Source: Janthinobacterium sp. PC23-8 (GTDB lineage Bacteria > Pseudomonadota > Gammaproteobacteria > Burkholderiales > Burkholderiaceae_D). From it: 64,000 bases of DNA. The notes beneath the pieces are model-generated. The model ran no database searches, had not been told where the DNA came from, and was given only the letters and a program-made list of their open reading frames with translations. Shown piece by piece: positions 14,249 to 30,153 of the stretch; position 1 is the first letter of the stretch, and every line of letters starts with the position of its first letter. The position numbers were made by a program, and so were the translations under genes. The DNA lies in the NCBI RefSeq assembly GCF_002250505.1, contig NZ_NJGY01000002.1, forward strand, positions 302,839 to 366,838. Direction: 5' to 3'.

Positions 14249-15685
14249 ATGCAACTCCATGACTATGTTCAATATGACGGCCTGGGTTTGGCCGCGCTGG
14301 TGCGCCAGGGCCAGGTCAGCGCCGTGCACCTGCAGGCCTGCGCGCTGCAGGCCATCGACGCCGTCAATCCGCGCATCAATGCCGTGATCGAACACTGGCC
14401 GGCCGAGCCCGGGCCGTTTGACGCGGCCGCGCCCTTTGCCGGCGTGCCTTTCCTGATCAAGGATATCGCCGTGGCCATGGCCGGCAAGAAAATGGAAATG
14501 GGCAGCCGCCTGGCGGCCGGTCATGCAGCCGCCCAGGATACTTTCCTGATGCGCCAGTTCTGCCACGCCGGCCTGGTGACCATCGGCCGCACGACCACGC
14601 CCGAAATGGCGTTTGCCACCACCACCGAGGCGGTGCTGTATGGCGCTACGCGCAATCCGTGGAATTTGTCATTCAGCACTGGCGGCTCCAGCGGCGGTGC
14701 AGCCGCCGCCGTGGCGGCCGGCATCGTGCCCTTGGCCCATGCGACGGATGCGGCCGGTTCCATCCGCGTGCCGGCCGCGTCCACCGGCCTGTTCGGGTTG
14801 AAACCGAGCCGCGGCCGCGTCTCGAACGGCCCGGCCATGGATGAAATTTTCAGCGGCCTGGGCGTGCAACTGGGCCTCAGTCGCAGCGTGCGCGACAGCG
14901 CCGCCTTGCTCGATGCCGTGCAAGGGGGCATGCCGGGCGAACCGTATATTACTGCCGCACCCGGCCATAATTGGCTGTCGCAGGTCGACGTGCCGCCTGG
15001 CCGGCTGCGCATCGGCGTGATGCGCGCTGCCAGCGACGGCCAGCGTCCCGATGCCGAAACAAGCCAGGCGCTGGACGATTGCGTGCGCCTGCTGGAAAGC
15101 CTTGGCCACCATGTGGAAGAGGCTGCACCGAGCCTCGGCGTCTCATGGGAAGCATTTGTTCTGGCCAATGCCCGCATCTGGTGCGCCAACCTGGTCGGCT
15201 GGATTGATGGCATGGCGCAAGAGTCAGGCCGCGTCATTTCGCGCGCCACACTGGAACCGGCGACGTTGGCTTGCTACCATTATGGCCAGACAGTCTCGGC
15301 GGTCGAGTTCGTTGCTGCGCTGGACGTGCGCAATACCGTCACGCGCCAGGCCGGCGCCTTCTTTGCGCACTACGATGTGCTGCTCTCGCCGACCTTGCCA
15401 TCGCTGCCATGGCAACTGGGGCGCTATGGAGAAGGCGAGGAATCGATGGACGGTTTTGCCTGGACGGCGCGCCTGTTCCAGCATTCGCCTTACACGCCGC
15501 TGGCCAATGTGGCCGGGTTGCCCGCGATGTCGTTACCGCTGGCGATGTCCGGCGATGGTTTGCCGATCGGCATGCAATTCATGGCGGGACTGGGCCGGGA
15601 AGGGTGCTTGTTGCAGCTGGCAGGCCAGCTGGAACGGGCCGCGCCTTGGGCGCAGCGCCGTCCGGCCGTATGGGCAGGAAACTAG
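14249..15685 (+). CDS. amidase (amidase-signature family)
   Basis: A 478-residue hydrolase. The amidase signature region is clear: catalytic Lys in PFLIKDIAV (about residue 72), the Ser-rich STGGSSGGAAAAVAAG (about 147-162) holding the cis-Ser, and the nucleophile Ser in TDAAGSIRVPA (about 170-180). These enzymes hydrolyse carboxamides; the substrate cannot be told. The start is preceded by AAAGGAG. It is divergent from and probably controlled by the LysR gene. Its 3' end overlaps the convergent DUF2061 gene by 4 bp. Confidence 0.87.
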   Translation: MQLHDYVQYDGLGLAALVRQGQVSAVHLQACALQAIDAVNPRINAVIEHWPAEPGPFDAAAPFAGVPFLIKDIAVAMAGKKMEMGSRLAAGHAAAQDTFLMRQFCHAGLVTIGRTTTPEMAFATTTEAVLYGATRNPWNLSFSTGGSSGGAAAAVAAGIVPLAHATDAAGSIRVPAASTGLFGLKPSRGRVSNGPAMDEIFSGLGVQLGLSRSVRDSAALLDAVQGGMPGEPYITAAPGHNWLSQVDVPPGRLRIGVMRAASDGQRPDAETSQALDDCVRLLESLGHHVEEAAPSLGVSWEAFVLANARIWCANLVGWIDGMAQESGRVISRATLEPATLACYHYGQTVSAVEFVAALDVRNTVTRQAGAFFAHYDVLLSPTLPSLPWQLGRYGEGEESMDGFAWTARLFQHSPYTPLANVAGLPAMSLPLAMSGDGLPIGMQFMAGLGREGCLLQLAGQLERAAPWAQRRPAVWAGN

Positions 15686-16107
15686 TTGACTTGCAGCGCG
15701 GCGAGACGGATCGCGTCGCGCCGTTCCAGCTTGATGCGCAGGCGCTCCCATACGCCGTCATGGAAAGGCAGCACGATCACATTGCAGATCGGCTCGATCA
15801 CCGCCAGCACACCGCCAAATGCCGCCGAACCCGTGGCCCAGTACATCAGGGAAAAGGCCACGCCCATGTGCATCAGGGTCTGGCTCAGCTTTTCGCCGGC
15901 CAGCGCGGCCACGCCCAGGTGTGCATGACGTTGGCGGATCGCATGCCACAGCTTTTCGTGCAAGGGCAGCAAGGCCACGTTGAGGACCGGCTCGATGATG
16001 GCGGCCAGGCCACCAAGGGCGAGCGAGCCTGTCAGCAAGTAAGCGAGGCCAAAGGCGATCGACATGTGGGTGACGACCTGGCTGAATGTTTTGATGGCGG
16101 TGAGCAA
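15682..16107 (-). CDS. tandem DUF2061 small membrane protein
   Basis: About 141 residues containing two copies of the DUF2061 unit (about 2-58 and 66-122), each with the hallmark THMSIAFGLAYLLTG / MHMGVAFSLMYWATG and an IEPVLNV or IEPICNV helix ending near HEKLW or HDGVWERL. Function unknown; predicted inner membrane. I chose TTG at 16107 because AAAGGAG lies 7 bases before it and the next residues begin the domain; the frame runs open to 16320 without support. A Fur-like box lies about 40 bp upstream. Confidence 0.72.
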   Translation of the reverse strand: MLTAIKTFSQVVTHMSIAFGLAYLLTGSLALGGLAAIIEPVLNVALLPLHEKLWHAIRQRHAHLGVAALAGEKLSQTLMHMGVAFSLMYWATGSAAFGGVLAVIEPICNVIVLPFHDGVWERLRIKLERRDAIRLAALQVN

Positions 16108-16147
16108 GGGAGGCTCCTTTCTGAGCTGGCTGATCCTTGACTCATAT

Positions 16148-16166
16148 AGTAATGATTCGCATTTAC
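16148..16166. promoter_or_regulatory. Fur-box-like sequence upstream of the DUF2061 gene
   Basis: The 19-bp stretch matches the GATAATGATAATCATTATC consensus at 12 positions by hand alignment (AATGAT and CATT kept). On the minus strand it reads AAATGCGAATCATTAC, a form common before iron-regulated genes. It is well placed to repress the DUF2061 promoter. Confidence 0.42.
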
Positions 16167-16283
16167 AATTGGAAGTAAATTCTTTCAACCGGTGCAGTAG
16201 CGTGTGGCTATGACTGTTTTTGCGCAATGGGGAGGGGCAGGGAAGCATGCTTGAGACTGCCCCGCCGGCGGGGATGACAAAGC

Positions 16284-16308
16284 CCGCAATTGCCTTGCGC
16301 AATTGCGG
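16284..16308 (-). terminator. hairpin terminator after the SMP-30 gene
   Basis: CCGCAATTGC and GCAATTGCGG form a perfect 10-bp stem with a 5-base loop, 12 bases beyond the SMP-30 stop on its strand. The following bases (GGCTTTGTC) are only moderately T-rich, so termination may be partial. Confidence 0.6.
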
Positions 16309-16320
16309 CGGATCCGGCAA

Positions 16321-17262
16321 TCAAACGGCGCCGCGGGTGTTCACGTACAGCGAGTACAGCGATGAGCTGGCGGCCATGAAAAGGCGGTTCTTGTGACGGC
16401 CACCAAAACATAAATTTGCGCAACGTTCGGGCAAACTGATGTGGCCGATCGCCGTGCCGTCGGGTGCGAAAATACGTACACCGTCCAGTTCGGCGCTACC
16501 GGTTCCCCATCCGCACCACAGGTTGCCGTCGATGTCGACACGGAAGCCATCAGTCGTTCCGTCGGCGGCGTCGATCAGCACTCTGCCGTTCTTCAGGGAG
16601 TTGCCATTGACCACGTTGTAAGCGACGATGGTGCGGGGCCGAGCCCGGGAGGCGACGACGTACATTATTTTTTCGTCAGGAGAAAACGCGAGCCCGTTAG
16701 GGCCGGCGACATCATCGGCGACACAATTGAGAATGCCACTGGCCGGGTCAATGCGGTAGATGCTCGCAGGAAGCTGAGGCGCCGCAATTTGGCCCATGTA
16801 ATCGCTGACCAGGCCGAACGGCGGACTGGTAAACCAGACCGCACCGTCTGCGGTGACGACGACATCGTTCGGCGAGTTCAGTGGCTTTCCCTGATAACTA
16901 TCTGCGAGAACGGTAATGCTGCCGTCGTATTCCGTGCGGGTCACGCGGCGGCCGCCATGTTCGCAGGCAATGAGTCGGCCTTGCCGGTCACAGGTCAGGC
17001 CGTTGGCTTTGTCGGCAGAGGTGCGGTACGGTGCTACAGAGCCGGTTTCTTCGTCCCATCGCAGAATGTGGCCGTTAGGTAAATCGGTCCACAACAAGGT
17101 GCGGCGGTCGCCAAACCATACTGGCCCCTCCCCCCAACGTGAGCCGGTCCACAAGCGTTCGACGGTGGCGTGCGGGAGCCGGTAATGTTCGAACCGTTTG
17201 TCCAGGATGCGAATGGCAGGATCGGGTGTGCGCAGGCTGGGCTGCCAGAGTGACGTGGACAT
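16321..17262 (-). CDS. SMP-30/gluconolactonase-like hydrolase
   Basis: A 313-residue six-bladed beta-propeller of the SMP-30/gluconolaconase/LRE type: GEGPVWFGDRRTLLWTD (about residues 43-60) carries the metal-binding Glu, SPNDVV (about 129-134) the central Asn/Asp, and GPNGLAFSPDEKIMY the later propeller motif. It likely hydrolyses a sugar-acid lactone using a divalent metal. It starts 3 bp after the end of the MFS gene at 17266 on the same strand, so uptake and lactone hydrolysis of one sugar acid were probably one operon, now with a broken transporter. Confidence 0.83.
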   Translation of the reverse strand: MSTSLWQPSLRTPDPAIRILDKRFEHYRLPHATVERLWTGSRWGEGPVWFGDRRTLLWTDLPNGHILRWDEETGSVAPYRTSADKANGLTCDRQGRLIACEHGGRRVTRTEYDGSITVLADSYQGKPLNSPNDVVVTADGAVWFTSPPFGLVSDYMGQIAAPQLPASIYRIDPASGILNCVADDVAGPNGLAFSPDEKIMYVVASRARPRTIVAYNVVNGNSLKNGRVLIDAADGTTDGFRVDIDGNLWCGWGTGSAELDGVRIFAPDGTAIGHISLPERCANLCFGGRHKNRLFMAASSSLYSLYVNTRGAV

Positions 17263-17265
17263 GGA

Positions 17266-18300
17266 TTATTCTTCCTTGATGATGGTTTTCAGGATTAGCG
17301 TCAGGACGGTGGCGAGTACCAGCATGCTGCCCATACCGATCAGCCCGGCTTTGAAAGAGCCGGTCACATCTTTGAGCCAGCCGACCATATAAGGGCCAAA
17401 CAGACCGCCAAGACTACCTACTGCATTAATGAACGCCAGTCCGCCTGCTGCTGCCTCTCGGCTCAGAAAGGTGGCGGGGATGCTGTAAAAACACGTTCTT
17501 ACCGACGATAGTCCGATCAAGGCGACGGTCAGTCCGAGCATCGCCGGCACCAGTGATTCCGACATGACGGAACCGAAGAAACCGATCGCCGCCAGCCCGC
17601 AGGTCAGGGCCAGATGTTTCACGTAACGTTGCGATTTGGCAAGAATGCGCGCCCACAACAACATGGCAACGCTGCCAATGATGTAGGGAAGCGCCGTGGC
17701 AAAACCGACTTGCGTATCGGAGAGGCGGTAGGTTTTCAGAATGGTAGGCAGCCATACGCCGATGCCAAGAATACCAATGATGTAGCTGAACAGAATGGCG
17801 GCCAATAACCAGACGCGAATATCTTTTAGCGATTGCGCGAAGCTGTGCTGCGATCGACCTTGCCGCTCTTTATCGGGCGCATCTTGCAGCGCCAGACGCT
17901 CTTGAGGTGTTAAGTAAGTGCCAAGAAATTATTGTGAAATTATGACGAACAGAACCGGATGCGCTGCAAGGCGCCCGATGCGACGCAGTGCGAGCACTGC
18001 TAGCAGCGGGCAACGCCGCAGAGCGCCGGTTATGGAAGTCAGAATCCACAAGAATTTATGCGTACTTGCTTAGCCATGCGGCTTTGTCGGGCGTGTCGGT
18101 CAGCAATTTCAGGCAAAGCAAGCCCAGAACACAAGCCGGTAATCCCTGAAGAATAAACAGCCATTGCCAGCCATGCAGACCCAGCCAGCCATCCATTTTC
18201 AGCATCGATACCGAGAGCGGGCCGCTGACGACGGACGATAAGGGAATCGCCGCCAGGAACCAGGCCATCATGCGGGTCCGGTAATGGGAGGGAAACCTAT
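17266..18300 (-). pseudogene. MFS sugar-acid transporter, split by a MITE and cut 5' by an IS3 remnant
   Basis: Two pieces of one MFS transporter of the anion:cation symporter (galactonate/tartrate) type. The 5' piece (18070-18300) covers helices 3-5 (YRTRMMAWFLAAIPLS onward) and ends in TDTPDKAAWL; the 3' piece (17266-17913) resumes at TPQERLALQ and runs to the C-terminus with six helices. A 156-bp insertion lies between them; removing it with one 4-bp repeat restores the frame exactly. The first roughly 110 residues are missing because an IS3-type sequence abuts at 18300. The 3' piece may still be transcribed toward the SMP-30 gene. Confidence 0.8.
17914..18069. mobile_element. 156-bp MITE-like element with about 42-bp imperfect terminal inverted repeats
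   Basis: The left end (plus strand, GTAAGTGCCAAGAAATTATT...) and the right end (minus strand, GCAAGTACGCATAAATTCTT...) match at most positions over about 42 bases, both reaching AACCGG. The middle (17953-18031) folds into a long GC-rich imperfect hairpin with a small perfect stem, GCAGTGC/GCACTGC. TTAA (17910-17913) and TTAG (18070-18073) flank it as a probable 4-bp target duplication. It has no coding capacity, so it would be mobilised in trans. Excision restores the MFS reading frame (W-L-T-P-Q-E-R). Confidence 0.72.
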
Positions 18301-18613
18301 AGTGGACCCACGGTTTGAGACAGCGGTTTAAGCCATGGTCCTCACGAGAGGATGGCGGCAAATGGCGGAAATAAAGAAGCGAAAAGTGCACAGCGCGGAG
18401 TTCAAGGGGAAGGTCGGCCTCGAGGCGGTACGCGGGGTTAAGACGGTGAACGAGATCGCTCAGCAGCATGGCGTTCATCCGGTGATGGTGGCGCAGTGGA
18501 AAAAAGAAATTACTTCGCGCGCTGGCACCTTGTTTGAAGGGAAGCGCGGCCCGAAGGCCGAAGCGGAGCACGAAGGCGAGGACCGGCTGTACGGTGAAAT
18601 TGGGCGCCTCAAG
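18301..18613 (+). mobile_element. IS3-family remnant with truncated OrfA
   Basis: From ATG 18362 the frame encodes 84 residues typical of IS3-group OrfA: KRKVHSAEFKGKVGLEAVRG, then the HTH EIAQQHGVHPVMVAQWKKEI, TLFEGKRGP and DRLYGEIGRLK. After that the homology stops and unrelated codons run to 18718, so the leucine-zipper end of OrfA, all of OrfB and the right end are gone. The left end (around 18301, TGGACCCACGG) abuts the truncated MFS gene. Not capable of moving by itself. Confidence 0.75.
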
Positions 18614-18742
18614 CCGTGCGGCGTCGGAATCAAAGCAGGGGCAGCCATGCGAGTCAAAAAGTACGCGTGGCCAGCAAGTGGCAAAATCGCATTTGCGATT
18701 GAGGAAACCGTGAAATAGCAAGTTTTCTCTTTCGATTACTTA

Positions 18743-18770
18743 ACTTCGCATAATTTATATTATGTAAAAT
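18743..18770 (+). other. 28-bp dif-like XerCD recombination site
   Basis: The layout is that of a dif site: XerC arm ACTTCGCATAA (18743-18753), 6-bp centre TTTATA (18754-18759), XerD arm TTATGTAAAAT (18760-18770). Against E. coli dif 23 of 28 positions agree, including the whole CGCATAA core, the palindromic TTATG and the spacing. It could be the chromosome's own dif or a copy left by a Xer-exploiting element. The gene fragments on each side stop near it. Confidence 0.68.
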
Positions 18771-18826
18771 AGAGTGTGGGTCAGGTCAGGGGAAACATAT
18801 TCGATATTGCCGACGTTCGCGTCCAT
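18755..18826 (-). pseudogene. 5' fragment of a gene cut at the dif-like site
   Basis: On the minus strand GGAG lies 7 bases before an ATG at 18826, followed by 18 normal-looking codons (MDANVGNIEYVSPDLTHT). The frame then runs into the dif-like site and stops at a TAA inside it. It looks like the start of a real gene severed by recombination at the site. The product is not recognised. Confidence 0.4.
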
Positions 18827-18993
18827 GGTCTTGCTCCTCAATGGTTAATGGCCGCGATGACAACAAGAGACGTACGCCCTCGCTCTTGGTACGCGTCATG
18901 CTTTATCTGTGCATGCTGGTATCGATGTCAGGCGTCGTCGCCAGTACCGCCGCCGGTTTTCCGCAGTGGCTGCGCTGGCGCTGTTTGTCAAGG

Positions 18994-19932
18994 CTATCTG
19001 ATGGCCTTGTGTTCAGCCGCTACAGCCGGCATGGTCAATTGCTCCAGGTGAGCGACGCCCACAGGATCCTCCGCCAGCAATGGCACTACCGCGTAGCGAT
19101 GCGCGAGCTGCCGGGCCACTGTCGCGATGTACCCCTGTTCGTTCTGCGCGCGCTGACGCAGCAGAGGCGAGCGCGAGCTGGCCGCGCACAGGCTGTTGTT
19201 GATGACCCAGGCCCACGGTTCGATGCCTGCCCTGCGCAGGTCGGCCTGCAGGCCTGTCGCCTCCAGCACCGGGGTCGTCTCGGCCAGTGTGACGATCAAT
19301 ACCTTGGCCTGGTCCTGCAACTGCATCTTGGGCGTTGTGAAGTGCATCTGAGTGTCGGCCATCTGGCGTATCACTTCCCGGTGGTAAGCGCCCGTTGCGT
19401 CCAGCAGCAACAGCGTGTGGCCCGTGGGGGCGGTATCCATCACGACAAACTTTCTGCCAGCCTCGCGTATCGCGCGCGAGAACGCCTGAAAGACGGCGAT
19501 TTCTTCGGTACAGGGCGAGCGCAAGTCCTCCTCCAGCAATGCGCGTCCGGCCGCATCGAGTTTCTTGCCTTTTGTCTCCATCACCTCCCGGCGGTAACGC
19601 TCTGTTTCCGCATGCGGATCGATACGGCTCACGCTCAGATGCTCTATTGATCCGCGGAGCGTTTCGGACAGGTTCCCGGCCGGATCCGAGGTCGTCAGAT
19701 GCACCGCATGGCCGCGCCTGGCCAGCGCCACCGCCACGGCAGCGGCAATGGTGGTCTTGCCGACACCGCCCTTCCCCATCAGCATGATCAGACCGTGGCC
19801 GTTCTGGGCAATCTCATCAACAAGGCTGGCAAGCGCAGGCGTGGCGATCGCTGGCAGCGCCGCGACGGCGGGAGAAGCGCTGCCGTTCACGGCCAGCAGC
19901 AGGCGGCGCAAGGCATCGAGGCCGACCAGGTA
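18994..19932 (-). pseudogene. arsA: C-terminal half of ArsA arsenite-pump ATPase (relic)
   Basis: About 310 residues match the second (A2) half of ArsA: P-loop MGKGGVGKTT (about residues 46-55 from the TTG at 19911), the DTAP signal-transduction motif (DTAPTGHTLLLLD), and the LAETTPVLEA stretch. The whole A1 half is missing. Upstream it is joined out of frame to codon 67 or so of arsD near 19932, a deletion scar. ArsA needs both nucleotide sites to drive ArsB, so this piece should not function as a pump ATPase. No arsB, arsC or arsR is seen nearby. Confidence 0.82.
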
Positions 19933-20138
19933 CCGGAGCGCTCCAGGAAGCGCTTCACTTGCACGTTATCGGCAAAGGCCGTCGGTTGCTGGGCCAGGTT
20001 GTAGCGCTCCAGCTGCACACCGTTGAGCCGCGCCCAATCCGCATCGGCCGAAAACTGGAGCAACTGCGGTTCAATGTCCACTCCGCATACGCCACTGCTG
20101 CAGCACATGGCGGGTTCGAATACCTGAATGATTGTCAT
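19887..20138 (-). pseudogene. arsD: ArsD metallochaperone, 3' end lost
   Basis: The first 67-68 residues are clear ArsD: start with MTIIQVFEPAMCCSSGVCG, containing Cys12, Cys13 and Cys18 that bind As(III), followed by LQFSADADWARLNGV and VKRFLERSG. At about 19935 homology stops, and a short unrelated tail follows because the gene is fused out of frame to mid-arsA. About 50 C-terminal residues are lost. AGGAG precedes the ATG by 8 bases, so the truncated protein may still be made. Confidence 0.8.
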
Positions 20139-20353
20139 TGTAAGCTCTCCTGTCTCCCCTGTTACCAGACAATAGGCCCGATATGGCCCGGAAACAAGCG
20201 CGGCGGAACAGTGTGCCGCATGTTTTTACAAAAAATTGACCTCACGATGGTTGGCACGCAAATACCCGGATTTTTCATCGTGCGATGCGGATCGGGTAAG
20301 TATGATGTCAGCATGAACTGCCATACTCAGGTGGTTATAAAGGAGAGCGAGCG

Positions 20354-20716
20354 ATGTTCTTAGCGCGCACATGCATGGTGCTGTCTGCACTGGCTATCAG
20401 CGGCGCGGCCTGTGCTGAGGTCAACTGCACCGATCCGATTGCCGACTGGAAACCTCGCGAGCAATTGCAGCGGGAAGCCGAACAGCGTGGCTGGACTGTC
20501 CAGCGCATCAAGATCGATGACGGCTGCTACGAGCTCAGAGCCATTGATCGTAACGGCAACAAAATCAAGGCCAAATACTCCCCGGCGTCGCTGCGCATGC
20601 GCAGCCTGGCGGTGGACTTCGGCAACAACGGCGACACCGCCGACTACCTCGGCCCTGTACCGCAGGCTCCCGTCAGGCGGCCTGCAGGTCCGACATCCCA
20701 AGGGGAAAAGCAATGA
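20354..20716 (+). CDS. small secreted PepSY-domain protein
   Basis: 120 residues: a signal peptide (about 1-21, ending GAACA), then a single PepSY-like domain (about 24-95; WKPREQLQREAEQRGWTVQRIKIDDGCYELRAIDRNG). Two cysteines (VNC and DGC) could pair. It is the first gene of the four-gene flavin electron-transfer operon, overlaps the DUF2271 gene by 4 bp, and is preceded by AAGGAG. In this setting small PepSY proteins are thought to be periplasmic partners of the membrane reductase. Confidence 0.8.
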   Translation: MFLARTCMVLSALAISGAACAEVNCTDPIADWKPREQLQREAEQRGWTVQRIKIDDGCYELRAIDRNGNKIKAKYSPASLRMRSLAVDFGNNGDTADYLGPVPQAPVRRPAGPTSQGEKQ

Positions 20717-21183
20717 AAAACATCACAGCCTGCGCCTGCCTTGCAGGCGCATTGGCGTTGCCCGGTATCGTCCAGGCGCGCCCGGTCACACTCACCGCGC
20801 AACTGAAGAACTACGCCGGCAACGGCGCGTACCTGGCCGTATATGTCACGGATGCCGCCGGCAAGTACAAGAAAACGTTATGGGTAGCTGGAAAGAAGAC
20901 CAAGTATTACAAGCACCTGAGCGACTGGGCACGCGGTAGCGGCATGAAGGCGAGCGAATTTGACGGCGTCAGCGGAGCGAGCGTCGGCAGCGGCAAAACC
21001 CTCAAGGTGACGGTCGAGCTGGCCGACACACTGATTGATGCCGGTTACGAGATCCGGGTTGACAGCGCGGCAGAGGACGGGCGCGATCATCCGGCCGACG
21101 TGCACACGCCACTGACCAAACAGGGTGCCGGCAAAGCCGTCGGTGGACGCGGCTACGTCAAGTCCTTCATTTACGACATGTAG
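20713..21183 (+). CDS. DUF2271 secreted protein with a flavinylation motif
   Basis: 156 residues with a signal peptide (about 1-22, ending VQA) and a DUF2271 domain (about 25-150). The sequence DGVSGAS (residues 84-90, codons 20962-20982) fits the D-x-x-[ST]-G-A-[ST] motif to which ApbE attaches FMN, so Ser90 is the predicted flavin site. Since apbE and a PepSY-flavoreductase follow in the same operon, this is probably the periplasmic flavoprotein that receives electrons from the membrane reductase. It overlaps the upstream gene by 4 bp. The final acceptor is unknown. Confidence 0.8.
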   Translation: MKNITACACLAGALALPGIVQARPVTLTAQLKNYAGNGAYLAVYVTDAAGKYKKTLWVAGKKTKYYKHLSDWARGSGMKASEFDGVSGASVGSGKTLKVTVELADTLIDAGYEIRVDSAAEDGRDHPADVHTPLTKQGAGKAVGGRGYVKSFIYDM

Positions 21184-21193
21184 CAACCGACGC

Positions 21194-23413
21194 ATGTTAC
21201 GACAGATACATTCGCTCGCTGGCCTGATCAGCGCACTGCTGGTCATGCTCATCGGTTTGACGGGCGCCGTGCTGTCGATCAACCCCGCGCTCGAGCGGCT
21301 TGCGACCAGCGTGCCGGCGGGCGTCAGCGTTGCCGAACTGGCGGGCCGGGTGGCGCTCCACTATCCGGGAGCCGAGCAGATCCAGCGCACGGCCTCCGGA
21401 ACCATCATCGTCTATTACAGCGCTGGCGACATCTCGGGCGTGGACCGGGTCGACCCGTCCAGCGGCAAGGCGATCGCGCCCTATGCGCCGCCGGCATACG
21501 CGCGCTGGTTCAAGGAGTTGCACAGGTCATTATTCCTCGACACGCCCGGCAGCGCCGCTGTCGGCATCGCTGCCCTGCTGATGCTGCTGGTATCAGTCTC
21601 AGGGCTACTCCTGCTGGCCAAGCGGGTGGGCGGTTGGCGCCAGCTGGCACGTCCACTGCATGGCAATCGCAGCCAGCGCTGGCACGCTGCGGTGGCCCGT
21701 TTTGCTGTCGCCGGCCTGCTGTTGTCCGCAGTGACCGGCAGCTACATGTCGGCGGCGACCTTCACCCTCATTGCCGATGGCAGCCAGGACGAACCCGATA
21801 TCCCCGCCACCACCTCCGGCGGCACCCCGCTGCCCGCTGCCCGCTTGCCAGCCTTGCTGGCAACCAGTCTGGTCGATCTGCGCGAACTTTCCTTTCCGCT
21901 TGCCGGTGACAGCAGCGCCGTCTACACCTTGCGCACCCGGCAAGGCGACGCCTATGTCGACCAGTCCAGCGGCGCGCTGCTGGCCTACCGCGCACACAGC
22001 AATGTCCGAGCAGCCTTTGAACTGATCTACCAGTTGCATACGGGCGAAGGCTTGTGGTGGCTGGGCCTGGTACTCGGCCTGAGTGCGCTCGGCGCGCCCT
22101 GGCTGGCGGTGACGGGCATTGCCGTATGGTGGCAGCGGCAGCGGGCCAAACCGCGCATCGCCAACAACTCGGCTCCGGCTTCGGCCGACACCGTGATCCT
22201 GGTGGGGAGCGAAAACAACAGTACCTGGGGCTTTGCTCGCGCGCTGCACGATGCCTTGCGACAGGCCGGACAACGCGTGCACACGGCGCCGATGAACCAG
22301 TTCTCGTCCCGCCACGGCGCCGCGCGACAGGTGTTCATCCTGACGGCGACGTATGGCGATGGCGACGCTCCCGCCTCCGCCCGGCACTTTCTGGCCAATT
22401 TGGCCGGTATTTCCCCCAACCAGGCGGCAAGTTACGCCGTGCTCGGTTTCGGCGACCGCCAGTTCCCCACTTTCTGCCAGTTCGCACAGAAGGTCGATGC
22501 GGCGATGGCGGCACGCGGATGGCGCCAGTTGCTTGAACTGGCCCTGATCGACCGTCAGTCGCCGCAGGAATTCGCGCGCTGGGGGAGCCAGGTCGGCCCG
22601 TTGCTGGGCCACGAGTTCGTACTCGACTATGCGCCGGCACATCCGCACACGCATGCGCTGCAATTGCGCGAGCGCATCGCCTACGGCGAGGAGGAGCACG
22701 ATCCCACCGTGGTGCTGCGCTTTATAGCCGCCCCACCGCCGGCCAGCGCCGGTTGGCTGAAAAGCCGGCTTGCCTCCCACCGACTGCCCCGCTTTGAGGC
22801 CGGCGACCTCGCTGGTGTCATGGCGCCCGGCAGTTCCATGCCGCGCTTTTATTCGCTGGCGAGCGGATCGGGTGACGGCGTGCTGGAAATTTGCGTGCGC
22901 AAGCAGCCTGGGGGCGTGTGTTCAAGCTACCTGCACAACTTGCTGCCGGGGGACCGCATCGAAGCCTTTATCCAGCCCAATCCGCAATTTCGTCCGGCCC
23001 TGGGCAAGGCGCCCGTCATCCTGATCGGTGCCGGTACCGGGATCGGGCCACTGGCCGGTTTCATCCGCAACAATACGGGCCAACATCCGATGTACTTGTA
23101 CTGGGGCGGGCGCCATCCCGACTCCGATTTTCTGTATGAGCCCGAACTGCGCAACTATCTGGCGGACCGTCGGCTGACGCAGCTGCACACGGCCTTCTCC
23201 AGAGTCAAAAATGGCGTCCACGTGCAGACCCGGTTGATGGACGATGCCGACAATATGCGCCGCCTGATCGCCGACGATGGCCAGGTGCTCGTCTGCGGCA
23301 GCCGCGCCATGGCCGCCAGCGTGAGGCAGGCCATGGACCAGATACTCGCACCACTCAAGCTCGATGTAGCGGCGCTGCGGGAAAAAGGAAGGTATCGTGA
23401 AGACGTCTTCTGA
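21194..23413 (+). CDS. PepSY - flavodoxin - FNR fusion flavoreductase
   Basis: A 739-residue multidomain protein. Residues 1-330 are a PepSY_TM membrane part (first helix after QIHSLAGL, further helices near 120-145, 165-190 and 285-310). Residues about 335-480 are a flavodoxin domain (ILVGSENNSTWGFA; TATYGDGDAP). Residues about 500-739 are an NADPH-sulfite-reductase-like FAD/NADP domain (RFYSLASG for FAD; GAGTGIGPLAGF and YWGGRHPDSDFLYEPEL for NADP; C-terminal YREDVF). It should move electrons from cytoplasmic NADPH via FAD and FMN across the membrane. ATG 21194 is taken as start; the longer frame overlaps the DUF2271 gene. Confidence 0.87.
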   Translation: MLRQIHSLAGLISALLVMLIGLTGAVLSINPALERLATSVPAGVSVAELAGRVALHYPGAEQIQRTASGTIIVYYSAGDISGVDRVDPSSGKAIAPYAPPAYARWFKELHRSLFLDTPGSAAVGIAALLMLLVSVSGLLLLAKRVGGWRQLARPLHGNRSQRWHAAVARFAVAGLLLSAVTGSYMSAATFTLIADGSQDEPDIPATTSGGTPLPAARLPALLATSLVDLRELSFPLAGDSSAVYTLRTRQGDAYVDQSSGALLAYRAHSNVRAAFELIYQLHTGEGLWWLGLVLGLSALGAPWLAVTGIAVWWQRQRAKPRIANNSAPASADTVILVGSENNSTWGFARALHDALRQAGQRVHTAPMNQFSSRHGAARQVFILTATYGDGDAPASARHFLANLAGISPNQAASYAVLGFGDRQFPTFCQFAQKVDAAMAARGWRQLLELALIDRQSPQEFARWGSQVGPLLGHEFVLDYAPAHPHTHALQLRERIAYGEEEHDPTVVLRFIAAPPPASAGWLKSRLASHRLPRFEAGDLAGVMAPGSSMPRFYSLASGSGDGVLEICVRKQPGGVCSSYLHNLLPGDRIEAFIQPNPQFRPALGKAPVILIGAGTGIGPLAGFIRNNTGQHPMYLYWGGRHPDSDFLYEPELRNYLADRRLTQLHTAFSRVKNGVHVQTRLMDDADNMRRLIADDGQVLVCGSRAMAASVRQAMDQILAPLKLDVAALREKGRYREDVF

Positions 23414-24353
23414 ACCAGCGCTGCGGCGCTACAGCCTGAATGGCGAAACCATGGGCAGCCGCTATACGGCCGTATTCTATGCGGCCGGACAAGCGGACCT
23501 GGCCGCCATCGGCGCCAGCCTGTTTGCCGCCGTCGACAGGGTCGACCGGCAGATGTCGACCTGGAATGCCGCCTCGGACCTGTGCCGCCTGAACGCGGCG
23601 CCGGAAAACACCTGGCTTGCTGTGCCGCAGGAGCTGGCGCAGGTGCTCGCTGCGGGGCTGCTGGTCAGCCGCGAATCGGGCGGCGCCTTCGACATGGCGG
23701 TTGGCCAGCTGGTGGAGGACTGGGGATTCGGGCCGTCGCAACGCACGTCATCGGCGCAGATCGCGGCACAGCACGGCATGACTTACTGCCCGGCCGCCGA
23801 GGCACTGGAGCTGAATCTGGCGGCTCTGCAGGTATGCAAGCGCGCGCCGCTGATGCTCGACCTGTCGGGGATCGCCAAGGGTTTTGGCGTCGACCAGCTG
23901 GCGCATTGCCTCGATGGCTGGTCCATCGCCAGCTACCTGGTCGGTATCGATGGAGAAATGCGCGCGCGCTCGCTCAGGCCGGATGGCCAGGCATGGACCG
24001 TGGCGATAGAAAAGCCGACACCTGGCATCCGTGAAATCGGTGGCGTGATGGAACTGCACGACGTGGCCATTGCCACCTCGGGTGACTATCGCCGCTGGGT
24101 CGAGATCGACGGAACGCGCCATGCGCACACCATGCATCCGGCCTTGCGTCATCCGGTATCGAATCGTCTCGCGGCCGTTACCGTGCTGGCCCCCAGCTGC
24201 ATGCTGGCCGATGCCTGGGCCACGGCGTTCATGGTGCTGGGCGAGGACGACGGTGTCGCGCTGGCCAGAAAACGGGGCATGGACGTGCTGTTCGTCCTGC
24301 GTCACGGCGCCTTGCTCGAGGAAATTCTGATCATCGACGGCAAGATGGTCTGA
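23397..24353 (+). CDS. apbE: FAD:protein FMN transferase ApbE
   Basis: 318 residues, GTG start, overlapping the reductase gene by 17 bp. ApbE landmarks: NGETMGSRYTAVF near the N-terminus, DRVDRQMSTW, GGAFDMAVG, LDLSGIAKGFGVD (about 155-170), and the late RHAHTMHP segment where most homologues have HT(I/M)DP. It has no clear signal peptide, so it may act in the cytoplasm or be anchored through a partner. Its predicted target is the DGVSGAS site in the DUF2271 protein of the same operon. Confidence 0.87.
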   Translation: MKTSSEPALRRYSLNGETMGSRYTAVFYAAGQADLAAIGASLFAAVDRVDRQMSTWNAASDLCRLNAAPENTWLAVPQELAQVLAAGLLVSRESGGAFDMAVGQLVEDWGFGPSQRTSSAQIAAQHGMTYCPAAEALELNLAALQVCKRAPLMLDLSGIAKGFGVDQLAHCLDGWSIASYLVGIDGEMRARSLRPDGQAWTVAIEKPTPGIREIGGVMELHDVAIATSGDYRRWVEIDGTRHAHTMHPALRHPVSNRLAAVTVLAPSCMLADAWATAFMVLGEDDGVALARKRGMDVLFVLRHGALLEEILIIDGKMV

Positions 24354-24369
24354 TCTGAATGGCCGTGCA

Positions 24370-26919
24370 TCAATGCGCCGGTGCCGCAGCGCGCAGCCAG
24401 CACCATTTTGACAAGCCCCACTTGACGCACTCAAACCAGATGATGCCGAGCACGGCGACGAATGTGCACTGCATCAGCAGTGCCATGTCCGGCAGCGCGA
24501 AGGCAAACAGCTTGCGGATGGCCTCCACGCCCAGCACCAACAACAGCAACAGCGAGGCCGCCATGCTGATCCAGGCGAACGCCCGGTTCGACTTCAGCCC
24601 CCTCCTCCATGACGGCTGGGTCCATTGGCGATTGACATAGATCAATCCCAGGTTCGACGCCACGAGGCTGATGAAGGTCGTCGTGCGCGCCACTTCATCG
24701 GAATTGCCCGTCCACAGCACCAGCACGTGGAAGCCGACCAGCATCGCCAACAGCCCTACCCCCTGCAGCAGGCCGCGCAGCAGTATTTCACGGTCGAACA
24801 AATGCATGTCCGGCCTTCTGGGTTTGCTCACCATGGCGTCCGCCTCGATCGGCTCGGCCTCGAACACGATCGAGCAGGCGGGGTCGATCACCATTTGCAA
24901 AAACAGTATGTGCACGGGCATCAGGAGCATGGGCCAGCCCAGCAGCACCGGCAGGATGGACAGGCCAACGATGGGCACATGCACCGCGACGATGAAGACG
25001 ATGGCCTTGCGCAGGTTGGCAAACAGGCGCCGGCCATGTTGCACCGCCAGCAGCAGGGAAGAAAAATCATCCTTGAGCAATACCAGCGCTGCCGCCTCGC
25101 GCGCGACGTCGGTGCCACGGGCGCCCATGGCCACGCCAATGTTGGCCGCCTTCAATGCGGGCGCATCGTTGACGCCATCGCCGGTCATGGCGACGATATC
25201 GCCACGGCTGCGGAAAGCTTGCACCAGGCGCAATTTCTGCTCCGGCGCAATGCGGCAAAAGATGTCGGTATCCCCCAGGCGCGCTTTTAGTGCCGAATCG
25301 TCCAGCGCGGCCAGGTCCATGCCGGACATGACTCTGGCCGCCATGCCGGCGATACCGGCCTGCTGCGCGATCGCCAGCGCCGTGGCGGGATGGTCGCCCG
25401 TGATCATCACCACGCGCATCCCGGCCGCGTGACATTGCGCCACCGCATCGGGCACTTCCGGGCGTACCGGGTCGTGCAAGCCAAGCAGGCCCAGGAATTC
25501 AAAATCGAAGACATGCTGGTTGTCAGGCAAGGGTGGCGCGGCAAAGGTGGCGCTGGCGACGCCAATCACACGCAAACCGCCGTTCGCCATGGCCTGTACC
25601 TGCGCCGCGATGGCGGCGGCGCGCGCCGGTGCCAGATGGCACAGATCGATGATGGCCTCGGGCGCACCCTTCGCCGCCACCAGGAACTCGGAATGGTCCG
25701 GCGATTGCCATACCCGCGACATGGCCAGCATTTTCCGCGACAGCGGATAATCGTCGATCAGTCGCCAGTCGGCATGCAGGTGCTCGGTATTGGCCAGCAA
25801 GCGGGCACCGGTCTGGCTGATGGCCGACTCCATCGGATCGAACGCCCGCCGATGGCTTGCCAGGACGGCATATTCGAGCAAGCGGTGCAGCTCTTCCTGC
25901 AAGGCCCTGGCGTGACTGCTGCGCCAATCATGGGCGCAGGTCTCCGACCACAGCCGGGCCACATCCATGCGGTTGACCGTCAGCGTACCGGTCTTGTCAA
26001 CGCACAGTACCGTCGTCGCGCCCAACAATTCGATCGCGGGTATGCTGCGCGCCAGGATGCTTTCCCGCCCCAGGCGCCAGGCGCCCAAGCCCAGGAAAAG
26101 CGTCAATATCACCGGCAATTCTTCAGGCAGGATCGCCATGGCCAGCGTGAGACCTGCCAGCAGGCCTTGCAGGGCATCGCCGCGCAGCCACCAATAGACC
26201 AATGCCAGGCCTGCGGCGAGACACAAGCCGCCGATGGCGACATTCCTGACGACGCGGCGTGTTTCCAGTTGAATCGGTGTCAGCTCGCTCCCCATGGTGG
26301 CAAGCGAGGCGCCGATGCGACCGAGTGCACTATGGGGGCCGGTGGCGACTACCAGGCCGCTGGCAGTGCCTTGCGTGATCAGGGTGCCGGAATACACGAG
26401 GCTGTCCGGACTGCCGCCAGTCTCGCCGCAGCCATGCTTGACTACCGGCACGGACTCGCCCGTGAGCATGGACTCGTCGACCGTCAAATTCGATGCACTG
26501 AGCAGTTCCATATCGGCGGGCACGCGGTCGCCCTCGGCCAGCAGCACCAGGTCGCCCAGCACCAAGTCCCTGCCAGCGATGCGCTGCTGTTTTCCGTCGC
26601 GTATCACCAGGGCGCGCGGACAGGAAAGGTCGCTTAGGGCGTTCAGCGAGCGTTCCGTGCGCCTGCGCTGAAAGAAAGTGATGCCCATGACGATGCAAAC
26701 AAAGCCCAGCAGCATCAGCGCTTCATTGCGGTCGCCAAGCAGCAGATAAATGACGCCGCAGGCGACCAGCAGCAGGAACATCGGTTCGGAAACAACATCA
26801 AGCAGCAGGCGTCCGGCACTCAAGGGACGCGAGGCGGGCAAGGCATTCGGCCCGTTTTCCAGTAACCGCTGCGCGGCCTGCGTGGCTGTCAGCCCGTACC
26901 CCCTAAGATGCTGTGACAT
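24370..26919 (-). CDS. cation-transporting P-type ATPase (P2-like)
   Basis: 849 residues: N-terminal cation-ATPase domain, actuator with LTGES, helix-4 segment AILPEELPVILTLFLG, phosphorylation DKTGTLT, the hinge GDGVNDAPALKAA, and four to six C-terminal helices. The overall layout fits Ca2+/Mg2+-like P2 ATPases, but helix 4 has PEEL where Ca pumps have PEGL, and no metal-binding tail is present. Substrate unknown. It begins 1 bp after the stop of the CDF relic, so both were probably one cation operon before an IS5 insertion. Confidence 0.82.
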   Translation of the reverse strand: MSQHLRGYGLTATQAAQRLLENGPNALPASRPLSAGRLLLDVVSEPMFLLLVACGVIYLLLGDRNEALMLLGFVCIVMGITFFQRRRTERSLNALSDLSCPRALVIRDGKQQRIAGRDLVLGDLVLLAEGDRVPADMELLSASNLTVDESMLTGESVPVVKHGCGETGGSPDSLVYSGTLITQGTASGLVVATGPHSALGRIGASLATMGSELTPIQLETRRVVRNVAIGGLCLAAGLALVYWWLRGDALQGLLAGLTLAMAILPEELPVILTLFLGLGAWRLGRESILARSIPAIELLGATTVLCVDKTGTLTVNRMDVARLWSETCAHDWRSSHARALQEELHRLLEYAVLASHRRAFDPMESAISQTGARLLANTEHLHADWRLIDDYPLSRKMLAMSRVWQSPDHSEFLVAAKGAPEAIIDLCHLAPARAAAIAAQVQAMANGGLRVIGVASATFAAPPLPDNQHVFDFEFLGLLGLHDPVRPEVPDAVAQCHAAGMRVVMITGDHPATALAIAQQAGIAGMAARVMSGMDLAALDDSALKARLGDTDIFCRIAPEQKLRLVQAFRSRGDIVAMTGDGVNDAPALKAANIGVAMGARGTDVAREAAALVLLKDDFSSLLLAVQHGRRLFANLRKAIVFIVAVHVPIVGLSILPVLLGWPMLLMPVHILFLQMVIDPACSIVFEAEPIEADAMVSKPRRPDMHLFDREILLRGLLQGVGLLAMLVGFHVLVLWTGNSDEVARTTTFISLVASNLGLIYVNRQWTQPSWRRGLKSNRAFAWISMAASLLLLLVLGVEAIRKLFAFALPDMALLMQCTFVAVLGIIWFECVKWGLSKWCWLRAAAPAH

Positions 26920-26920
26920 A

Positions 26921-27279
26921 TCATCCAGCCCTTTCTAGACTACATGGGCGCAGCTCACTTTCGTGATCCAGATCCGGTCGCCTCCATAGATCGATGTGCG
27001 CCATCAGATTGAAAACCGGATGACGCTCGAGCACACGTCGGCGGGCATCGACAGCAATATCATGCCCAGCTTCGACCGTCAAGGATGCCTCGACCTCGAG
27101 GTGGACGTCCGCGATATTCATGTCCTCCATTTTACGTGTGCGCAAATCATGCATGCCATTGACTCCGTGAGTCTTTAATAGGGTCTCGAGAATTGCACTG
27201 AATTCAATCTCACCGATCCTGGCATCGATTTGGTCCAGCAACGGCGTCACTTGAAAAGCATCTCCCATATCTATGGTCG
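26921..27279 (-). pseudogene. C-terminal remnant of a CDF cation efflux protein
   Basis: About 119 residues, fused in frame to an IS5 transposase start. The part GVNGMHDLRTRKMEDMNIADVHLEVEAS matches the cytoplasmic ZT-dimer domain of CDF transporters (Zn/Fe/Co/Cd efflux), with the typical GHDIAVDARRRV helix and HIDLW strand. All six transmembrane helices are missing. The chimeric ORF may still be translated from the IS5 start at 27366, giving a soluble dimerisation domain, but transport is impossible. Confidence 0.72.
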
Positions 27280-27410
27280 GACCGGCATCGTACTCGGCCC
27301 AGTTCGTTACCTTGAATTTCATCTTCGGTATGTGGTGGCGGCGCTTTTCGTTGTGTTTGTTGGGCATGAGTCGGTACGCATTGTCAGTGGACAACACTTT
27401 ACCTGATTGC
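27280..27410 (-). mobile_element. 5' end of an IS5-family transposase gene
   Basis: From ATG 27366 the first 29 codons (MPNKHNEKRRHHIPK, then KVTNWAEYDAG) match the N-terminus of IS5-group DDE transposases. Homology stops at 27280, where CDF sequence begins in frame. The stretch 27367 to about 27410 is likely the IS end, abutting the acyl-CoA ligase relic. The remainder of the element is deleted. Confidence 0.65.
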
Positions 27411-27424
27411 TCTGGCCGGCCTCC

Positions 27425-27991
27425 GAATCGGCGCGTACCTTCGCCCTGTCGAAGGGGTGCATGATGCTCGGCTACCTGGTGGCCGGCAGCAGCGCCGGGA
27501 TCGACCCGGCTGACGCGCCGTTCCTGACCAAGGACTTGTTCGTGCCCAGCGGCGCCGGCTATCGCTTCCTGTCGCGCGACAGCGAGCGCGTCAAGGTCAC
27601 TGGTCAGTGGGTCAGCCCGCAACAGCTGGAAGAATGCCTGCTGGCCGACCGCCGCGTCGAGCGCGCCGCCGCCGTCCCCATTGCCACGCCGGAAGGCCTG
27701 GTGCGTCTACGCGCCTACATCGTACTGGGCAGTTGCGCGGAATCGGGCGACGAGGTGGCCTCATCGCTGATGCGGCGCATCCAGCTTGAGCTCAAGCCGC
27801 GCGCCCTGCGTCCGGACCGGATCGACGTGGTGCAGCACATCCCCAGTACGTCCAGCGGCAAGCTCAAGCGGCATGACTTGCTCGAACACATTCCTGCCCT
27901 GAAATCACCCAAGATCAGATATACTTGGAATTATTTGCAAATAAAAAACATTGCGCAAATAAACATTAAAAACAAGGGGGCCCGGCGGTAG
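27425..27991 (+). pseudogene. C-terminal remnant of an AMP-forming acyl-CoA ligase
   Basis: About 185 residues: the end of the adenylation domain and the AMP-binding C-terminal domain. Landmarks: LTKDLFVPSGAGYRFLSRDSERVKVTGQWV (hinge with Arg-Asp/Ser-Glu), QLEECLLADRRVERAAAV, and the catalytic Lys region STSSGKLKRHDL. It most resembles benzoate-CoA-ligase-like enzymes or loading ligases of polyketide pathways. Roughly 300 N-terminal residues with the ATP-binding motifs are absent, cut where the IS5 fragment begins. Confidence 0.72.
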
Positions 27992-28054
27992 TTACCGCTC
28001 TCGGTGCCGCATGGAGGGGCAGTGCAACACAGGGAAAATCGAGCGCACTCATGA

Positions 28055-28672
28055 ATGTCTATGTCAAGCCGTAAGTTCCACCGCCTGTCGGCCTGTTTTC
28101 TGGCGATGTATATAGTGCTGCATCTGGGTAACCACCTGGTGGCGGTTGCCGGCGTCCACGCGCACCTCGCCTTCATGCAGGCGATCCGGCCACTGTACCG
28201 GAATGCCGTGGTCGAGCCGCTACTGCTGGCGTGCGTGCTGTTTCAATGTGGCAGCGGCATATGGATGGTGCTGCGGGGATGGAAAAAACGCTCCGGGCTG
28301 GTAGCCTGGCTGCAGGCGGGTTCAGGGCTCTACCTGGCCCTGTTCCTGCTTGTTCATGTGGGCGCGGTCCTGTTCGGCCGCGCCGCGCTCAGGCTCGATA
28401 CCAATTTTTACTATGCCGCAGCCGGTTTTGTCCTGATGCCATATGTATTATTTTTTGCGCCATATTATTTCCTTGCCGTCTGCGCCCTGTTCACCCACCT
28501 GGGCTGTGCTGCATATTGGCAAGTCGAAGCGCGTTCGCCGATGGTGCGCAGGCTCGCCATCGGCGTACCGGCGGCAGTCGGCCTGGTGCTGGCCGTGCTG
28601 ATCGATCTGGCTTTGTCAGGCGTGCTGCACCCGCTCGCCATCCCCGCGAAATACCTGATGATTTACCAGTAG
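28055..28672 (+). CDS. succinate-dehydrogenase cytochrome-b-like membrane protein
   Basis: 205 residues with five hydrophobic segments. The spacing of histidines (VLHLGNHL near 25, H36, LLVHVG near 100, THLG near 147) resembles the di-heme fumarate reductase/SdhC-type cytochrome b fold. No SdhA or SdhB lies nearby, so it is not part of a normal complex II. It sits among relics of a biosynthetic cluster and may have been an accessory gene there. The start is uncertain (28055 or 28061). Confidence 0.5.
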   Translation: MSMSSRKFHRLSACFLAMYIVLHLGNHLVAVAGVHAHLAFMQAIRPLYRNAVVEPLLLACVLFQCGSGIWMVLRGWKKRSGLVAWLQAGSGLYLALFLLVHVGAVLFGRAALRLDTNFYYAAAGFVLMPYVLFFAPYYFLAVCALFTHLGCAAYWQVEARSPMVRRLAIGVPAAVGLVLAVLIDLALSGVLHPLAIPAKYLMIYQ

Positions 28673-28775
28673 GCCGGACGCGAGCCAGCCGGTGGGCAAG
28701 GACGGCGAAGTGTCATTGCCGGGCTTATCGAGCATGTCTGTGTTCCCGACAAATTCTTACTAGTCGAGGCAATCA

Positions 28776-29324
28776 ATGGTGAGCGAGCAGCGTAGTTTGC
28801 AGGTCGGATTCGATACCCATGTGGAATTAAAAAAATTTCAAGATTTGCGGCAGTGTGAAAATGAAGAGCAGATCAAGATCAAGATCATGATCGAGCGCGT
28901 GAGCAATCGGCTCGGTTTTGATTATTATTTTTACCGTGCCCGCTTCGTTCTCGACCATACCCGGCGTATCGACCGGATATTGAGCAATTATCCTGCTGCA
29001 TGGCTGCAGCAATACAAGCATGATGACCTGGCCCGGATCGACCCTGCGGTGCAGCACGCCCACTCGACATTGACGCCGTTGGTCTGGGATCCCTACGGGC
29101 ATATCGACGCGGAGCAAGCGCGTTTTGTCGGCGAGGCCCAACGGCATGGACTCGCCACGGGGGTGAGCTTTCCTGTTCATAATAAGGATGGCGACATCGG
29201 CGTGTTCAGCCTCGCACTGGGCACACAGGATGTCTATGCGCATGGCCTGATCCAGGAAAACTTGTATTTTGGCGCGTTCATTGCCAATTGCATCCATGAC
29301 CGGATGCGCTCGCTGGTTTGGTAA
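28776..29324 (+). pseudogene. LuxR-family protein truncated to its acyl-homoserine-lactone domain
   Basis: 182 residues cover only the autoinducer-binding domain (about 25-170). The residues that line the AHL pocket in LuxR/TraR are in place: Trp in AAWLQQY, Tyr of the same motif, the Asp-Pro pair in ARIDPAVQH, Trp in PLVWDP, and Gly in LATGVSFPV. The GerE-type HTH (about 65 residues) that should follow is missing: the frame stops inside DNA belonging to the opposing acyltransferase gene. It could still bind ligand, but it cannot bind DNA as LuxR does. Confidence 0.8.
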
Positions 29325-30153
29325 GCACCCGCCCGGGCCCCATCTCGGCGAATTCCGACTGCCCCGCCCGGATCAGCCAGGAAACCGATTCGCTCCACAG
29401 CACCGGACGGGTGATCTGCGCAGCCAGGAATGCCGGGATCACCTTGGACGGATCACCTGCCGGATAAGGCAGCGCGGTGACGTTGGCTACGACCGGCACG
29501 CGCAATGGCTGAAAGACGAAATCCGCCAAAAACCGTGCAAATTGCTGCGCCGCGTCGGCCATGTAGCGGGAATGGAAAGCGGCACTGACCTGCAGCGGCA
29601 CGTATAGCCTCGCTCCCGCATCGGTGAAATGGGCGCCCGCCCGCTTGATGTCCGCACTCGGGCCCGAAATGACGACCTGGGTCGGGGAGTTGAAATTGGC
29701 GACGTCGATCGACGCCAGGCCATGCTCGCTCAGCACGCGCGCGACCCCGGCTGCCGATAACCCAAGCACGGCCGCCATTGCGCCCTGGCGCGCCTGCGCC
29801 ATCAATTCCCCGCGCCGCTTGACCAGGCGCAGCCCATCGACCAGGCCGAAAGCGCCTGCGGCCGACAGTGCGGAGTATTCGCCGAGACTATGCCCCGCAA
29901 AATAGGCCGGGCCCCGTCCGGCAGCGATTGCCTGGAGGTAGTGGAGGCAATTGACGACATACAGTCAAGGCTGCGTGTACTGCGTCTGCTGCAGCAGGTT
30001 GTCGCGGTTATCCAGGCAAAGTTCGCGCAGCGAATAGCCCAGGATGTCGTTGATGTCGTTTTCCGCGTCCATGAACTGCTGCACGCTGTCAAACAACTCC
30101 CGCCCCATTCCCTTGATCTGGGAGCCTTGACCTGGAAACACAAAGACCGACAT
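29278..30153 (-). pseudogene. malonyl-CoA:ACP transacylase (trans-AT type) with in-frame TGA
   Basis: A FabD/PKS-type acyltransferase: start with MSVFVFPGQGSQIKGMG, active-site GHSLGEYSAL, catalytic His in AFHSRYM, and MGPGRVLTK near the end. Codon 63 is TGA (29965-29967) between QTQYTQP and LYVVNC, where homologues usually have Cys, so one base change broke it. The normal C-terminus is also lost: after RVLTK the frame enters sequence shared with the truncated luxR. The arrangement suggests a trans-AT polyketide cluster that has been deleted. Confidence 0.8.

Follow-up and report, generated by a model that had tools for sequence, protein, structure and literature searches.

The four genes at positions 20354-24353 (+) of the window, the whole 64 kb stretch of Janthinobacterium DNA that was analysed, constitute an intact member of an already known kind of operon, the PepSY/DUF2271/ApbE flavinylation clusters. 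Within that kind, the operon is of type II, one of two types that are separated by a tree of DUF2271 domains and by gene content, and the window's genome holds both, its type I cluster (L013) being located on contig C4. On balance, type II is best read as a flavin relay to a periplasmic acceptor that acts alongside divalent-metal transporters in metal or redox stress and employs a signal-less, cytosolic ApbE. If this is true, the PepSY/DUF2271 clusters represent at least two systems that differ in control and purpose rather than one iron-uptake family, both of them present in one genome and one of them found on conjugative plasmids near metal transporters. No description of a type II sub-type with a two-component pair was found in the literature searched, which was mainly open-access text without supplements.

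Operon layout and two types of DUF2271 cluster

The initial annotation had described four genes that run in one direction and overlap or abut, and gene calls and Pfam agree with it at the same coordinates (Table 1). The PepSY_2 and DUF2271 genes overlap by 4 bases, the ATG of the fused reductase lies 10 bases past the DUF2271 stop, and the reductase and ApbE genes share 17 bases. For the reductase, ATG 21194 is the most likely start, in place of the GTG 21125 given in the mechanical ORF list; the ApbE gene starts at GTG 23397, which is preceded by GGAAGG. Pfam assigns PepSY_TM (5.6e-38), Flavodoxin_1 (2.8e-16) and NAD_binding_1 (1.6e-12) domains to the reductase, with FAD_binding_6 at 20.3 bits, slightly below its cut-off of 21.1. 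An Rfam search of window positions 15000-30000 gave nothing at gathering score, and no DUF2271 relative was found in the viral contigs searched.

Table 1. Coordinates of the operon and of adjoining features in the window
Feature	Position	Strand	Remarks
GTAAG-N6-GTCAG direct repeat	20296..20311	+	candidate response-regulator box; 42 bases before PepSY_2 ATG
PepSY_2 gene	20354..20716	+	120 aa; small, secreted; C25 and C58 (DDGCYE); PF13670, 3.5e-25
DUF2271 gene	20713..21183	+	156 aa; predicted flavinylated electron carrier; export-like N-terminus; PF10029, 8e-37
DGVSGAS	20962..20982	+	predicted FMN attachment motif; S90 is its final residue
PepSY_TM-flavodoxin-NAD-binding reductase	21194..23413	+	739 aa; Pfam
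ApbE FAD:protein FMN transferase	23397..24353	+	318 aa; without signal peptide; PF02424, 1.4e-72
P-type cation ATPase	24370..26919	-	convergent, possible functional partner; nearest solved: calcium-transporting ATPase 2C1 (8iww, E 1.1e-108)

The window also holds several remnants. At 18994-20138 (-), a piece of arsD precedes the C-terminal half of arsA, which covers positions 284-564 of the 565 in the ArsA model, and this arsD/arsA copy is a remnant; L015, L017 and L019 have matches to both arsA halves at the same place. Judged by eye, an ORF like an IS3-type transposase OrfA stands beside it at 18335-18718 (+), and an ORF at 27407-27991 (+) looks like a fragment from the C-terminal end of an acyl-CoA ligase.

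Of 300 genomes from the order that were searched with PF10029, 36 gave above-cut-off matches. The 128 sources classified (L013-L102, of which 80 are the best of 224 relatives from one scan; L136-L172; and part of the window) gave 125 DUF2271 places, with none from L170-L172, whose matches are below the cut-off. Each place takes its type from the better-scoring of two models built for this analysis, and gene content agrees with these labels. In a tree built from 67 of the 125 domains, a single branch (100/100) splits the types. Gene content was counted within 7 kb of DUF2271, in stretches some of which end sooner. Among the 95 type II places, which amount to 91 distinct DUF2271 domains (four identical pairs, three of them double fetches) and lean on related genomes, most Pseudomonas rows being close kin, PepSY_2 is found at 84, a PepSY_TM part of the window's kind at 95, ApbE at 90 and DUF4198 at none; a two-component pair (HK + RR) accompanies 54, VIT1 33 and a P-type ATPase 18, with one or other of the last two at 47. 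The 30 type I/III places all have DUF4198, which is missing from the window cluster; 26 have ApbE and 2 an HK + RR pair, and PepSY_2, VIT1 and P-type ATPase are found at none.

The predicted relay and the compartment of flavinylation

The predicted electron relay is well supported by homology. In the path proposed, electrons would pass from NAD(P)H to FAD and then FMN in the C-terminal portion of the reductase, on the cytosolic side, next to hemes in its PepSY_TM part, with H5, H109, H163 and H281 (numbering from base 21197) as putative ligands, and from there to a covalent FMN on S90 of the periplasmic DUF2271 protein. The final periplasmic acceptor would most likely be a metal ion or complex. 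The four histidines are conserved in 98-100% of the 95 type II rows, and a profile built from the PepSY_TM part finds FoxB (7abw, E 3.8e-9), a 382-residue chain titled siderophore reductase that lacks the flavodoxin/FNR part of the window reductase. Three of the four align with FoxB histidines in the printed alignment and the fourth was matched by eye, beyond it. When an AlphaFold model of the PepSY_TM part (pLDDT 82.7, from 23 rows) was searched with Foldseek, none of the 174 matches had E <= 0.001, and 7abw was not among the best 50 of the 174, which counts against a FoxB-type reading; a PDB sequence search with the single PepSY_TM sequence was unconvincing (best E 2.7). Together, the Pfam domains and the FoxB profile match make it likely that the reductase is the electron donor, as had been annotated initially with the acceptor left open.

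Attachment of FMN to S90 is predicted from motif and homology. DGVSGAS was found in DUF2271 exactly where it had been placed, and the accompanying proposal that this protein is the ApbE substrate gains from a homologue: the DUF2271 protein of Amantichitinum ursilacus is flavinylated by its ApbE at [S/T]GA[S/T], and a Thr-to-Ala change abolished flavinylation (PMC8238504). The window protein likewise carries the [ST]GA[ST] motif of the PepSY-like flavinylation criterion, and a PF03929 protein is also present in its cluster. Conservation of the motif among homologues, suggested earlier as a check, is complete in type II, where [ST]GAS is kept at 95 of 95 places. Since the gene order moreover recurs in Janthinobacterium, Rugamonas, Massilia and Pseudomonas as well as on rhizobial and roseobacter plasmids, the four-gene arrangement is not a product of chance. 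A PDB sequence search with DUF2271 gave no convincing match (best E 0.23).

Type I places are more varied at the motif. The idea that motif loss always goes together with ApbE loss was dropped, the cases being mixed: L151 and L159 have neither the motif nor ApbE, and L153 and L156 keep the motif with no ApbE in the stretch. L142 and L150 have ApbE beside DUF2271 with TSPT / QPT at the motif, and are candidates for a natural loss of flavinylation. In L161-L164, ApbE and DUF2271 are joined in a single open frame, with PepSY_TM and DUF4198 nearby and no [ST]GA[ST] in the DUF2271 part.

The window ApbE is kin of solved FMN transferases, the nearest being 5mgy (E 9.6e-58). An in-frame stop at 23367, 10 codons upstream of its GTG, leaves no room for a signal peptide. 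By one hydrophobicity rule applied alike to all three proteins (12 residues with a mean Kyte-Doolittle value of at least 1.6), an export-like N-terminus is present in 0 of 90 type II ApbEs, 83 of 84 PepSY_2 proteins and, over the first 30 residues, 93 of 95 DUF2271 proteins (2 of 95 by a stricter 14-residue rule on clipped segments); the stricter rule is passed by 2 of 22 type I ApbEs. The DUF2271 protein of the window has a hydrophobic N-terminus that ends at VQA-R. On plasmids, twelve DUF2271 proteins open with similar hydrophobic stretches and seven ApbEs likewise begin directly ahead of the catalytic domain. Thus, the initial emphasis on substrate, transferase and donor being encoded together holds for the genes, which adjoin, but not obviously for the compartments, given a signal-less ApbE and an export-like DUF2271.

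Either flavinylation precedes export, or ApbE enters the periplasm without a recognisable signal. The former is probably the case: ApbE would modify DUF2271 in the cytosol, either ahead of its export or in the course of it. A 2025 review describes ApbE as typically periplasmic and also recounts a cytosolic ApbE with a soluble target (PMC12052999). Not every DUF2271 system has a signal-less ApbE: that of the A. ursilacus pair had a signal peptide, which the authors truncated (PMC8238504). The signal-less enzyme raises the question of where secreted proteins gain covalent FMN, and whether the export channel passes an FMN-bearing protein.

The PepSY_2 protein would be a secreted accessory, perhaps a sensor or a metal ligand. 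Its C25 and C58 are present in 99% of 84 type II rows. It was not seen in 11 of the 95 type II places and is therefore not part of the minimal relay. A fold search with its model (pLDDT 77.2) gave nothing at E <= 0.001, the weak matches including YpmB, YpeB and FoxB, and the best PDB sequence match, to a designed protein (E 0.012), is unconvincing. DbfQ, another small PepSY protein, can bind a kinase (PMC12714742).

Control region, metal-transport neighbours and plasmids

Ancestrally, type II may have been controlled by a two-component system rather than by Fur. Scored against a 19-base Fur consensus, the 410-base regions upstream of type I clusters reach at least 14/19 in 11 of 26 cases, including L013 with 16/19. 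The same score is reached by none of the 25 type II regions scored, which comprise 8 from Janthinobacterium (300 bases) and 17 others with a two-component pair; one further region had no bases left. Among 425 window chunks (300 bases) taken as background, a score of 14 is reached by 2 and a score of 13 by 15. Fur control of the window operon was considered and is not favoured: the best upstream site scores 13/19 and overlaps the arsD start, and the highest scores at L016 and L018 are no more than 11 and 10.

A TTCAG-N6-GTCAG repeat is common to type II loci with a divergent HK/RR pair. A matrix built from 20 loci recovers it, above every background chunk, in 36 of 38 held-out regions, many of which are near-identical, and misses L039 and L177. 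At the window, the strict response-regulator matrix does not find the box, its score of 3.7 being matched by 7% of background chunks. A relaxed pattern, [GT]T[AC]AG-N6-GTCAG, which was chosen after the upstream alignments had been inspected, has its only match in the window at the candidate box (Table 1). With the same spacing it occurs at all 3 Rugamonas loci, at 7 of the 8 from Janthinobacterium, counting the window itself, and at none of 8 others scanned; genome-wide, its 20 occurrences do not exceed the 28 of the reversed control. No two-component pair adjoins the operon in the neighbourhood searched, no clear orthologue of the Pseudomonas-type regulator was found in the window's genome (best RR identity 51%), and the repeat is absent from the four own-genome RR regions checked. 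In the window strain, the operon might still answer to a response regulator through the candidate box.

Contig C6 (L195) of the same genome carries an RR-HK-VIT1 set facing an RND-adaptor-like gene. The C6 RR (78% identity) and HK (59%) are orthologous to the two genes that immediately precede the operon on the Janthinobacterium J1-1 plasmid; the facing gene shares 48% identity with the RND adaptor of J1-1, and VIT1 follows the pair. The RR scores best with the PmrA and QseB models, below cut-off for both, and the VIT1 shares 57-64% identity with four of five VIT proteins from other type II loci and 31% with the fifth.

Downstream, the convergent P-type ATPase has a PMR1-type model as its best NCBIfam match (471.5 bits, below the cut-off of 798.3). 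The ATPase 2C1 pump, its nearest solved relative, moves Ca2+ and Mn2+. Across the genus, the operon occurs in 9 of 37 genomes. The ATPase, at an identity of at least 75% (a limit set afterwards), is present in 9 of 9 genomes with the operon, in 8 of which it is simply the linked neighbour, versus 3 of 28 without (any match, 5 of 28); a VIT1 match is present in 8 of 9 versus 5 of 28. Fisher tests, not corrected for kinship or linkage, give p values of 1.8e-6 for the ATPase (any match, 1.6e-5) and 2.5e-4 for VIT1.

A tblastn search with the window DUF2271 found 97 plasmid records, 71 typed conjugative and 38 named Pseudosulfitobacter (40 of the 97 listed). These matches are probably type II by sequence, because the same query does not find the own-genome type I DUF2271. 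Twelve plasmid stretches were examined, ten after merging the near-identical L173, L175 and L183. In these ten, among which L176, L182 and L184 are kin and for which the type I places are the sole control, with no random or matched plasmid control, an HK/RR pair adjoins the operon in all and a VIT protein and/or P-type cation ATPase is present in nine, L182 having an ATPase fragment only. On the J1-1 plasmid, the RR and HK genes are followed by the operon, which is interrupted in the reductase gene, and the pair faces CzcA-type RND genes.

Some individual loci deserve separate mention. In L021 / L174 (the J1-1 plasmid) and in L049 (titled Undibacterium), which has the same DUF2271 and HK/RR pair as the J1-1 plasmid, the reductase match covers the first 114 residues only and is followed by transposase-like genes. 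L173, a Salmonella Cubana plasmid stretch, has mcr-9.1 annotated at 27591-28468, ~13 kb from the type II DUF2271. The locus of L085 (Pseudotabrizicola MAG) is very like that of L072 (Pseudomonas sp., also a MAG), reflecting either recent transfer or mis-binning.

Possible roles and comparison with known systems

The type II module would serve metal or redox stress together with the adjacent ATPase and with VIT1 elsewhere in the genome. Its associations with HK/RR pairs, with VIT1 or P-type ATPases and with plasmids favour metal stress over Fur-controlled iron assimilation, a metal link that extends within 7 kb to only 47 of the 95 type II places. A more specific version is put forward tentatively: type II may be a mobile, two-component-controlled electron-export module for metal stress, in which DUF2271 is flavinylated in the cytosol and then secreted, reversing the usual periplasmic ApbE route.

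None of the 25 type II regions scored has a good Fur box, while the own-genome type I operon has a 16/19 site, which makes it rather unlikely that type II is an assimilatory ferric reductase whose relay reduces periplasmic Fe3+ or ferric siderophores for Fe2+ import. Such a role, iron reduction and assimilation, has been inferred for PepSY-like clusters from Fur control, TonB receptors and VIT1 (PMC8238504), insertions in the Caulobacter type I cluster lose fitness in EDTA (PMC12004947), and the FoxB profile match points to a siderophore reductase. Should VIT1 act as an importer in this setting, as it may, its association with type II would count for the assimilatory side. However, plasmid type II loci come with their own two-component pair, P-type ATPases and VIT, and on J1-1 with CDF and RND metal efflux genes. 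It is less probable still that the relay supplies periplasmic reductant against oxidative damage in an MsrPQ-like manner, feeding a repair reductase or quenching oxidants. Although ferric-reductase-like, ferredoxin-reductase-family or cytochrome b proteins lie inside several plasmid versions, no such cytochrome gene is among the four window genes, and no MsrP or peroxidase is named in the annotated plasmid stretches, where annotation is incomplete (L177 is unannotated).

The clusters had been described initially as known from comparative genomics and uncharacterised. The first part stands: as counted in the text of Meheust et al. 2021 (PMC8238504), there are 3220 PepSY-like clusters, often with DUF2271 (2833) and DUF4198 (1500), with 1077 PepSY-like genes that have an NAD-binding domain and VIT1 in 167 clusters. 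The second part does not extend to Caulobacter, whose CCNA_03155-03159 cluster responds to iron and Fur and is Fur-controlled (PMC3751524), and whose insertions there have lower fitness in EDTA (PMC12004947). In Alteromonas, DUF4198/DUF2271 pairs are linked to iron-responsive receptors (PMC7190382).

With the clusters of PMC8238504, the window operon shares the PepSY_TM conduit, the DUF2271 substrate and ApbE, the NAD-binding domain occurring there in a subset and VIT1 in some. Compared with those clusters as described in the text, the window has no DUF4198, an added PepSY_2 gene, one fused reductase, a separate DUF2271 branch and a signal-less ApbE, and many of its type II relatives have a two-component pair and no Fur box. 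The cytosolic ApbE of Klebsiella pneumoniae also lacks a signal peptide, but its target is a soluble fumarate reductase (PMC12052999), whereas the DUF2271 target in the window has an export-like N-terminus. The DbfQRS and BqsPQRS modules (PMC12714742, PMC12666569) resemble many type II loci in having a small secreted PepSY protein beside a two-component pair; the portions of these sources consulted mention no flavin relay, and unlike these modules, the window operon has no kinase/regulator pair next to its PepSY gene. Finally, Caulobacter CCNA_03155-03159 (CC3059-3063) encodes a PepSY protein, DUF2271, ApbE and a reductase as in the window. Given its DUF4198 and Fur control, however, its counterpart is L013 in the window's own genome and not the window operon.
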